Shown piece by piece: positions 18,100-20,814 of a DNA stretch of 64,000 bases. Source of the DNA: Acholeplasmataceae bacterium (lineage in GTDB: Bacteria > Bacillota_I > Bacilli_A > Acholeplasmatales > Acholeplasmataceae). Position numbers and translations under genes: made by a program. Where the stretch lies: the NCBI GenBank assembly GCA_007692425.1, contig RECG01000013.1, positions 1 to 64,000 on the forward strand. Reading direction: 5' to 3'. Every line of letters starts with the position of its first letter. Within the stretch, counting starts at the first letter, position 1. The notes beneath the pieces are model-generated. The model searched no databases, was not told the origin of the DNA, and saw nothing but the letters and a program-made list of their open reading frames with translations.

Positions 18100-19056
18100 T
18101 CATGGTCTTGGACGACCATGCTGGAAATCGTTGATGCGGTCTTGCATCTCCTGACGTCTTTGTTCCATCTCATCGAGGAAATCTTCAACATCCTGGCGAT
18201 GGGCTTCAATCCGTTGCTGGCGCATGCCATGCATTTCAAGTCTCAAGGCCTCGGATTGTGCCAAAAACTCATCACGCAGATTTCCTAGTGCATCAAGTAA
18301 GTCGGCACGCAGGTCCGCAAGCTCGGCCAGGATCGCGGGTTGGTCTTCCGGTTCCGCTGTTTCAAGTTGTTCAAGCAGTGCTTGAATCAAATCTTGGTAT
18401 TCGGCCAGGACGGCATCTCTTTCAGCCAGGAACTGGTCACGCAGGGCATGTGCCACTGCTTTGTGTTCGGTGGCACGGGTGCGTAAAATGGCATTGAGTT
18501 CGTCAACCGTCATGTCAAGTGCCTCTTCCAAGGAAATCTCATCATCCATTTCGGTCACCTGGCGGGCCAAAAACAGGAACCCGGGGGTGACGCCATATGA
18601 TTCGGCTTCAGCGACAAAATCAGGAACAAAGCCCTTGTCTTCCGCCCGGCCCATCATGGCGCGGTTCATGAACGCCTGGTTGATGATCGCCTTGACACGT
18701 TCACGGATGATGTTACCGAGTTCCGCCTGTTCGGCAATGGATGTCACCGCGATGGTGACTTCTTCGGCATCGACATCGATAAAGCCCAGATTGATGGCTT
18801 CTGTGATGATCAGGTCGATGGCGTCATCAAGATCCATGCCGACCAGATCCAAGCCCAGCAAGAGCATTTCAGCATCCTCGTTGAGCGGATTGGCATAAAT
18901 GACCTTTTCACGCGGTGTGACCACGAGTTCGATGCTTGGATTGATATCGAGCGTCACATAGGCATCATGTGCAGACACCTCATCGGTGCAGGCCACCAAG
19001 GCCACGATAGCACTGAATAGCACCATCAGTGTTAAAACAATTTTAAATGATTTCAT
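18100..19056 (-). CDS. Lipoprotein with RsgI-like extracytoplasmic domain
   Basis: 318 aa. Lipoprotein signal ending LVAC (Cys23). Residues about 30-110 (YVTLDINPSIELVV, KVIYANPLNEDAEMLL, AINLGFIDVDAEEVTIAV) match the middle domain of RsgI-type anti-sigma-I factors. The rest is acidic and helical with likely coiled coil (about 200-310), ending HGRPRP. The start is set by AGGAGG 10 bases upstream of 19056; the frame runs 21 codons further without a ribosome site. It is third in a module with an ECF sigma factor and an anti-sigma candidate, so a cell-surface sensing role is likely but inferred. Confidence 0.7.
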   Translation of the reverse strand: MKSFKIVLTLMVLFSAIVALVACTDEVSAHDAYVTLDINPSIELVVTPREKVIYANPLNEDAEMLLLGLDLVGMDLDDAIDLIITEAINLGFIDVDAEEVTIAVTSIAEQAELGNIIRERVKAIINQAFMNRAMMGRAEDKGFVPDFVAEAESYGVTPGFLFLARQVTEMDDEISLEEALDMTVDELNAILRTRATEHKAVAHALRDQFLAERDAVLAEYQDLIQALLEQLETAEPEDQPAILAELADLRADLLDALGNLRDEFLAQSEALRLEMHGMRQQRIEAHRQDVEDFLDEMEQRRQEMQDRINDFQHGRPRP

Positions 19057-19115
19057 GTGATGTTTCCTCCTATTCACTTCATATACAGGTTTGCATTCAT
19101 TTTTATTGGCGAATC

Positions 19116-20207
19116 TCATAAATTGATCGGTAGATGTTCACGCGGCAACCCCGGTGGATCGATCCTTCCCCGGCCGCGTTCGATGATGATTTCGGGCAAG
19201 CCTTGGGGACGGATGGCGAAGCGATAAGCAGCATCGCTGCCCGGATCGGTGATCAGTTCGATTCTAATGTTGCCGGTCTCACGGTCACCGTTGCGTAAAA
19301 TGGCATAATGCACCTGCAACAACGGCTGATCGTTGTCGGCACCCGAGGTGAAACGGTAGGTGCCACGGCCAAGACCGGTTTCAAGATGAAGGAAAATCTC
19401 ACGCGTGTCTTGATCGACCACATGTTTCAAATAGAGCGACTGGATGATGTTCCCTTGCCTGGTAATCGAGATGTTTTCAATCGTGTCGCCGTCTTCTTCT
19501 TGGTGGGTGACATCGATGCGGTTGTCGTCATCGATGATCAAGCCAATGTGCAGGACGTAACGATCCATGACCCATCTGCTTTGTCCTTCGATGGCGAACA
19601 AGCGGTCATTGATCGACAGTTCACCCGAAAGCGTGAACTCATCTGGCATGTCACCGTCAGGCAGACGATTGAACCTGATGTCATATTGTGTTGCCTCATC
19701 GAGCAGGGAGTTGCTGGCAAAACGGATATGATGGGAAAAGTCATGTGTGTCATCGGGTTCGATACGGGTCCTCATCAAGTCGGCCGGCGTGCCAAAAATC
19801 CGCTCTATCAGTTCAAGATAAATCAATAAGTGTTCAATTTCATGTTCGACCAAGCTGTCTGCCTCGTTGTGTTCGAGCCGGTTGTTGATAGACAACGCTT
19901 CGGCAAACGCATGATCAGCCAGTGTCACAGCCGAGAAAGCACTCATGACAATGGCTTCATCAACGTTCTGGAATGTCGGCGAAGTGTCTTGACCAGGATA
20001 AAACAACACCAGAAACAAGGTGATTACGGCAGCCAGGAGTCCAAGTGAAAGGATTGGTTTCATGCGTAAACGCGGTCGTGGCAACATGACCGGAGCGGCA
20101 GGATGAGGTTGTTGCCGGTGGCGGGCAAGAATGTCTTTCGACAAATCCTTGATGACGACATCATCGGCCTTGTTTTGAATCAGTTGGATCAGGTCTTTTC
20201 TTTTCAC
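19116..20207 (-). CDS. Putative membrane anti-sigma factor
   Basis: 363 aa. A short cytosolic N-terminus (about 1-48), one membrane segment (about 49-68, ILSLGLLAAVITLFLVLFY) and a large outside domain of about 295 residues rich in charged beta-strand-like sequence. It overlaps the sigma gene by four bases, the usual sigma/anti-sigma arrangement. The cytosolic part has no HxxxCxxC zinc motif. I do not recognise the outer domain. The role is assigned from position and topology, not from sequence family. Confidence 0.6.
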   Translation of the reverse strand: MKRKDLIQLIQNKADDVVIKDLSKDILARHRQQPHPAAPVMLPRPRLRMKPILSLGLLAAVITLFLVLFYPGQDTSPTFQNVDEAIVMSAFSAVTLADHAFAEALSINNRLEHNEADSLVEHEIEHLLIYLELIERIFGTPADLMRTRIEPDDTHDFSHHIRFASNSLLDEATQYDIRFNRLPDGDMPDEFTLSGELSINDRLFAIEGQSRWVMDRYVLHIGLIIDDDNRIDVTHQEEDGDTIENISITRQGNIIQSLYLKHVVDQDTREIFLHLETGLGRGTYRFTSGADNDQPLLQVHYAILRNGDRETGNIRIELITDPGSDAAYRFAIRPQGLPEIIIERGRGRIDPPGLPREHLPINL

Positions 20208-20722
20208 AGGTACTCACCTACCTTTCCTTTCAAGGTCTTGATGGCCTTGTTGTATTTCCATAAGACGGTGCCCAGGGGCTTGTCGACAATGACGGCGATC
20301 TCTCTGAACTTGAGTTCGTTGATGACATGCAAGATGACGATTTCTTTGGCGTCGTCATCAAGCAGGTCAAGGATTTTGAAAACTTCTTGATCATCAGGTT
20401 CCGGTTCAGGTCTCAGGTCAGGCATCTGATCCATCAAATCGTCGCCGTAGACCTCGCGTTTGCGTCGGTTATACATGTCAAGCGCCAGATTTCTGGCAAT
20501 CATTGACAAGTAAGCGACGACATTGCCGTTTTCATCCACCTTGTCGATGTTTGACAAAAATTTCATATAGGTTTCCTGCATGATATCTTCTATCAGGTTT
20601 TCATCGCGGATGATGCCGGCAACGGCATAAAAGACCGCCTTTTTGGTCGCGTCATAAAAGATGTCGAATTGGCGTTGGTCTTGCACCTTCAGTTGTTTGA
20701 CAATCTCCTTGATCTGATGCAT
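20204..20722 (-). CDS. ECF-type RNA polymerase sigma factor
   Basis: 172 aa. Region 2 (about 20-90: DENLIEDIMQETYMKFLSNI, AYLSMIARNLALDMYNRRKRE) binds polymerase core and the -10. Region 4 (about 115-170: LDDDAKEIVILHVINELKFREIAVIVDKPLGTVLWKYNKAIKTLKG) is the -35-binding helix-turn-helix. A TATAAT box lies about 20 bases before the start. The gene heads a module with a membrane anti-sigma candidate and an RsgI-like lipoprotein. Confidence 0.9.
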   Translation of the reverse strand: MHQIKEIVKQLKVQDQRQFDIFYDATKKAVFYAVAGIIRDENLIEDIMQETYMKFLSNIDKVDENGNVVAYLSMIARNLALDMYNRRKREVYGDDLMDQMPDLRPEPEPDDQEVFKILDLLDDDAKEIVILHVINELKFREIAVIVDKPLGTVLWKYNKAIKTLKGKVGEYL

Positions 20723-20814
20723 AAGTTCCCCGTTTCATCCATTATACGGATGGGATGTCGGTTTTATTGGTGTTTTACCGAATGATTCGTTTAATCATGA
20801 CATTGACTGGTAAT

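Follow-up and report, generated by a model that had tools for sequence, protein, structure and literature searches.

A cluster of three adjacent genes in a wall-less member of the Acholeplasmataceae probably constitutes an autoregulated operon for an ECF sigma factor and a membrane anti-sigma factor, with a SEAL-domain lipoprotein as its main linked target. What is new is a conserved ECF-type promoter predicted before both the sigma factor gene and the lipoprotein gene, which suggests that the sigma factor may turn on both. The operon, its conservation, the SEAL fold with its cleavage motif and the promoter motif shared by the two genes are established here by computation. The literature searched, which consisted mainly of openly accessible papers, does not describe a system of this kind, and the portion of a mapped-promoter study of Mollicutes (PMC5138195) that was covered contains no mention of ECF.

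Organization and conservation of the three-gene cluster

The window, i.e., the whole stretch of 64,000 nucleotides that was analysed, belongs to a 1.45-Mb genome in 29 contigs, whose family is, judging from its named relatives, the Acholeplasmataceae of the class Mollicutes. Its minus strand carries, in this order, the gene for the ECF sigma factor (20204..20722, 172 aa, an open reading frame supported by profile matches), the gene for a 363-aa membrane protein that is our anti-sigma candidate (19116..20207, with a GTG start and a 4-nt overlap with the sigma factor stop), and the gene for the SEAL-domain lipoprotein (18100..19056, 318 aa). A terminator-like hairpin (20846-20819, minus strand) lies between the cluster and an upstream leuS-like gene. 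The placement of the three frames on the minus strand in the first-pass annotation was confirmed, and only the lipoprotein start, which had been put at 19119, needed correction to the ATG at 19056 on the evidence of homologues and an AGGAGG ribosome-binding site.

The same annotation had proposed a search for this gene order elsewhere, and relatives do have it: of the 30 family loci inspected, 29 have the genes for the sigma factor, the anti-sigma protein and the lipoprotein side by side, and in the remaining one (L017) a contig end falls inside the anti-sigma gene. Such adjacency is far beyond chance. Among the 88 Acholeplasmataceae genomes of our family set, the RsgI_M profile PF23750 is present in 34, and 33 of these also have a strong match (>200 bits) to the module anti-sigma protein, the 34th (G040) having only a SEAL protein of another type; none of the 88 has an anti-sigma match above 200 bits without RsgI_M. 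Moreover, a single group of the phylogenetic tree (support 100/95) holds the sigma factors of 28 module loci. In identity to the window copy, the lipoprotein (35-54%) is better conserved than the anti-sigma protein (21-28%).

The sigma factor and the membrane anti-sigma candidate

The 172-aa protein matches Sigma70_r2 (1.9e-11) and, above the cut-off, the sigma70-ECF family TIGR02937 (1.1e-17, 64.2 bits versus 42.9), and its match to Sigma70_r4_2 (1.4e-5, 25.0 bits) is slightly below the curated cut-off of 25.7. These matches bear out the earlier assignment of the protein to the ECF type, with regions 2 and 4, rather than to SigI. It is the sole ECF-type protein among the three Sigma70_r2 matches in the genome, the other two being an rpoD-like 430-aa frame and a SigH-like gene. 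The latter, on C20, was considered as a possible second ECF gene and rejected because of its neighbours, which we take from their sequences to be an rlmB-like gene, secE, nusG and rplK, a setting that points to SigH.

The 363-aa protein is a candidate anti-sigma factor by virtue of gene order and predicted topology, and we infer that it binds the sigma factor. According to its AlphaFold model (mean pLDDT 81.5, pTM 0.70), it would comprise a 48-residue basic cytosolic head that contains two short helices, then a single membrane-spanning helix and, outside, a large beta domain. The predicted transmembrane helix (residues 51-69, 20001..20057, minus strand) is a helix in the model and is hydrophobic in sequence; the beta-rich outer domain spans residues 147-345 of the model (19173..19769, minus strand). 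No Pfam or NCBIfam family matches the protein above cut-off, head included, and no anti-sigma domain was recognised. The outer domain, which had been described as unrecognised, indeed has no PDB match at E<=0.001 in Foldseek. Structure comparison by VIA gave only Z scores below 8, with a weak resemblance to calycin-like barrels (CpeS, Z 7.8; FABPs, Z 5-6), which is a hint from a predicted structure and falls below the trust level. A PDB sequence search with the anti-sigma profile returned chance-level matches only, and the viral contigs searched contain no relative of the protein. We also considered whether its head is homologous to those of clostridial one-piece SEAL anti-sigma proteins, but none of the matches was significant and the idea was dropped.

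A SEAL domain on a separate lipoprotein

The lipoprotein has a lipobox in its signal peptide, ALVA followed by C23 (18988..18990, minus strand), a cysteine that is invariant in all 20 rows of alignment A1. Residues 32-161 (18574..18963, minus strand) form the RsgI_M/SEAL domain, by both profile and fold: the protein matches PF23750 with an E-value of 1.1e-24 (88 bits versus a cut-off of 25.3), and its AlphaFold model (mean pLDDT 88.9) retrieves 10 PDB chains at E<=0.001, all of them RsgI periplasmic (SEAL) domains, with 8t9n as the best (E 3.8e-7). The resemblance to RsgI, which had been put forward from the sequence as one of the points on which that interpretation would stand or fall, is thereby upheld, and the identification of a true RsgI/SEAL fold on a separate lipoprotein is firm. 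In the model, a small helical part follows the SEAL domain and then long helices, residues 184-313 (18118..18507, minus strand) making up a long helical, coiled-coil-like tail.

In the profile alignment, Pro40 corresponds to residue 1 of the solved cleaved RsgI chains, and we infer from this alignment that the lipoprotein cleaves itself at the bond between Asn39 and Pro40 within DINPS (18937..18942, minus strand). Both residues are invariant in the 27 rows of alignment A4, and the NPS motif is kept in 32 of 33 homologous family ORFs. The exception (L038, in G033) has lost the NPS self-cleavage motif and retains the lipobox and its position in the module, and another of the 33 homologues (L049) is devoid of the lipobox cysteine; thus, neither feature is absolutely required.

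Several other features of the family are worth recording. Most lipoprotein homologues have Arg-Pro at the C-terminal end (window 18103-18120), despite variable tail length: it occurs in 24 of the 32 homologue rows printed, plus the lone copy L002. In strain zrk7 (L099:5989-6988), whose genome is complete, the lipoprotein frame is represented by two overlapping ORFs, reflecting either a frameshift or a sequencing error. Four genomes (G029, at L162:1019-3391, and G028, G035 and G046) encode a frame of 784-791 aa with three tandem SEAL domains, each frame giving three RsgI_M matches; the L162 frame starts with a lipobox and has upstream of it the promoter motif described below.

A conserved promoter motif and the predicted regulon

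Two copies of a putative ECF-type promoter are found in the cluster, both on the minus strand. The one predicted for the sigma factor gene (20742..20770) consists of a -35 element CCAATAA (20764-20770), a 16-nt spacer and a -10 element GTATAA (20742-20747), and that predicted for the lipoprotein gene (19081..19109) of CCAATAA (19103-19109), the same spacing and GTATAT (19081-19086), located after the stop codon of the anti-sigma gene and before the ATG of the lipoprotein gene. When the strict pattern CCAATAA-N16-GTAT was sought within 150 nt of gene starts, it was present before the sigma factor gene in 27 of 28 loci (the exception being L087), where an autoregulatory promoter is accordingly predicted, before the anti-sigma gene in none of 28, and before the lipoprotein gene in 24 of 29, the other five being one base off with GTAC for GTAT; mono-shuffle controls of these counts gave at most 1. 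The 16-nt spacing is fixed, and in 25 of the 27 sigma factor sites the distance from GTA to ATG is 22-26 nt. Considering that the spacer sequence varies while the two elements and their distance are kept, the motif appears to be under selection. Use of these promoters by the sigma factor encoded in the cluster is predicted from such conservation.

A family scan with a sharper form, CCAATAAA-N15-GTATAT, yielded 69 sites in 36 of the 88 genomes, compared with 3 for the reversed pattern, and showed the motif to be almost absent from genomes without the module. In the genome of the window itself, the motif is not enriched when up to one mismatch is allowed (7 sites versus 7 for the reversed control); the argument draws on where the sites lie and on how well they are conserved in relatives. 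Four of these seven sites precede, at a fitting distance, the sigma factor gene, the lipoprotein gene, a lone SEAL lipoprotein gene on C16, and rsmD.

Targets of the 69 family sites were tallied by position and downstream frames; for the subtilases, the DUF2202 proteins and a 170-aa membrane protein, one member each was submitted to Pfam and the others were grouped by eye. Forty-eight sites lie before sigma factor genes (20), module lipoproteins (23), other SEAL lipoproteins (3) and second-module lipoproteins (2), and the rest before subtilases (5), DUF2202 proteins (4), the 170-aa membrane protein (4) and rsmD (1), or before no clear target (7). The subtilases downstream of the motif are secreted, and in the genome of the window a subtilase gene that shares a contig with the cluster starts 57 nt after a copy of the motif whose spacer measures 15 nt. 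The seven sites not accepted as having clear targets comprise one at a decayed-looking gene in G006, one each in G011 and G024 with no gene in place, one in G086 inside an open frame, and three in G038 (L218, C78 and C82) at or near contig ends. Downstream of the G006 site (L206, G006:C33:7221) come a ribosome-binding site and a start codon, but the frame does not stay open; this genome lacks the module, and the site looks like the remnant of a decayed target gene. The lone SEAL lipoprotein gene of the window's genome (G000:C16:48744-49139; L002, L168) has the module promoter upstream and no neighbouring sigma or anti-sigma gene.

Since the module lipoprotein gene has its own copy of the promoter and the same promoter is found at unlinked SEAL lipoproteins, the lipoprotein is first of all a predicted target, or output, of the sigma factor encoded beside it, and this claim is better supported than that of a sensor.

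Related modules and known systems

The premise of the first-pass annotation that the RsgI middle domain occurs only within anti-SigI proteins proved too narrow. In seven loci of Clostridia/Erysipelotrichia type (L107, L109, L110, L112, L113, L114 and L117), an ECF sigma factor adjoins, as in the window, a SEAL membrane protein; however, SEAL is there part of a one-piece anti-sigma protein, and the sigma factors group apart from those of Acholeplasmataceae. Two further loci outside this family, in Tenericutes bacterium ADurb.BinA124 (L100:3975-7389) and Clostridia bacterium RGIG3902 (L101:3966-7098), resemble the window in clustering an ECF sigma factor, an anti-sigma protein and a SEAL lipoprotein, but their anti-sigma proteins carry SEAL whereas that of the window family carries an unrelated beta domain. 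In L100, the sigma factor and lipoprotein genes have a common promoter-like element, unlike the family motif (28 of 36 positions identical, equalled by 0 of 200 shuffles), and in L101 no shared element was detected between the two genes (157 of 200 shuffles were as good).

In addition, many family genomes contain a second module (L157-L161 and L165), in which a lipoprotein with a beta domain and an acidic tail is followed by a sigma factor and an anti-sigma protein with the same beta domain. This domain is that of the window-type anti-sigma protein, the sigma factor is close to that of the first module, and the first gene is preceded by the same promoter motif in L157, L161 and L165. Together with L100 and L101, the second module indicates that a lipoprotein beside an ECF sigma/anti-sigma pair is a recurrent arrangement, in which its domain is either SEAL or beta.

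With the SigI/RsgI systems of B. subtilis and Clostridium thermocellum, the window module shares a sigma/anti-sigma operon and a SEAL-type extracellular domain, with the Asn-Pro motif and fold, just outside the membrane, and an M50 protease is encoded in the genome here as well. It differs in that the sigma factor is of ECF type (regions 2 and 4), not SigI, and in that SEAL is not part of the anti-sigma protein but of a distinct lipoprotein, whose gene is preceded by a sigma-type promoter of its own. SigW/RsiW and SigV/RsiV are pairs of an ECF sigma factor and a membrane anti-sigma factor, and the SigW consensus has a GTA-type -10, a 16-nt spacer and a -35 of TGAAAC. The window module is similar to these pairs in its operon, its one-helix anti-sigma candidate with a short cytosolic head, its predicted autoregulation, the GTA-type -10 and the 16-nt spacer; in contrast, its -35 is CCAATAA, its anti-sigma candidate belongs to no recognised anti-sigma domain family, and it has a linked SEAL lipoprotein as predicted target.

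Proposed working and alternative explanations

We propose that, at rest, the 363-aa protein would use its short cytosolic head to keep the sigma factor at the membrane, and that a surface or membrane signal on the outer part would expose this protein to proteolysis; an RseP-type M50 protease is encoded in the genome. The freed sigma factor would then transcribe from CCAATAA-N16-GTAT promoters, with its own operon, the adjacent lipoprotein, the unlinked SEAL lipoprotein, probably the secreted subtilase, and others as targets. The lipoprotein would be lipid-anchored at C23 and its SEAL domain would cut itself between N39 and P40, the two pieces staying joined by beta-sheet until the body and the coiled-coil tail are shed by force or unfolding.

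How the lipoprotein relates to the signal may be explained in different ways. It has a good, though less than even, chance of being only an effector of a surface-stress response, either shed or bracing, while the anti-sigma protein senses alone via its beta domain, perhaps a hydrophobic ligand. The lipoprotein's own promoter, the unlinked paralogues in the predicted regulon and other secreted targets such as the subtilases all agree with this, and so does the weak calycin likeness of the beta domain, although that likeness is below the trust level (Z <8). Taken by itself, however, such a role leaves the constant place of the lipoprotein gene beside the anti-sigma gene unexplained.

Tentatively, the SEAL lipoprotein might instead be the receptor: in its intact form, self-cleaved but still associated, it would bind the anti-sigma protein's outer domain and so shield it, and shedding of the lipoprotein would start proteolysis. 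The tight synteny and co-occurrence of the two genes and the stronger conservation of the lipoprotein argue for it, as does the presence of the same outer domain on lipoprotein and anti-sigma protein in other modules (beta in the second module, SEAL in L100 and L101), which suggests functional pairing. If the lipoprotein is both receptor and sigma factor target, a homeostatic loop would result. On the other hand, a separate lipoprotein promoter and unlinked SEAL lipoproteins with the same motif are the pattern of a plain target. The earlier description of the cluster as a rewired two-protein surface sensor therefore holds in part: the ECF sigma factor, the separate SEAL lipoprotein and the conserved order stand, while the lipoprotein's own copy of the sigma factor promoter, and the presence of that promoter at unlinked SEAL lipoproteins, argue against a pure co-sensor. 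The least certain part of our proposal is feedback from the lipoprotein to the anti-sigma factor, whereby loss or shedding of the lipoprotein would turn the sigma factor on, which we consider conceivable but somewhat doubtful. It is rather unlikely, in our judgement, that the self-cleaving lipoprotein works as a fuse responding to mechanical load or to membrane integrity, whose shedding would relieve the beta domain of the separate anti-sigma protein and free a sigma factor that replaces the lipoprotein.

Finally, it is highly improbable that the motif represents a repressor site or a promoter of the housekeeping type instead of an ECF promoter: being AT-rich, the TGTATATT-like -10 could be taken for a weak housekeeping element, but a search for a sigma-70-type site at both promoter places in the window found none, the motif is missing before the anti-sigma gene and nearly so from module-free genomes, and its fixed spacing and distance to the ATG fit a promoter. 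We retain the autoregulated ECF operon with the SEAL lipoprotein as its main linked target as the preferred explanation.

Implications for wall-less bacteria

Work on SEAL domains has treated them as switches that respond to force and sense plant polymers or the cell wall, a description drawn in part from PMC12203970. Wall transpeptidases were found in none of the 88 family genomes, and neither was the RsgI_N head (PF12791), for which the B. subtilis positive control was detected; SEAL is therefore unlikely to read a peptidoglycan wall in these organisms. Here, SEAL lipoproteins occur in wall-less bacteria, under apparent control of an ECF sigma factor and with a predicted regulon of surface proteins. 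If the lipoprotein did act as a fuse, the SEAL switch would here be divided between two proteins and form a homeostatic loop. In any event, the module offers a simple system in which to study the sensing or other function of a self-cleaving surface domain in cells without a wall, and its promoter could readily be used as a reporter of alternative sigma factor activity in Mollicutes.
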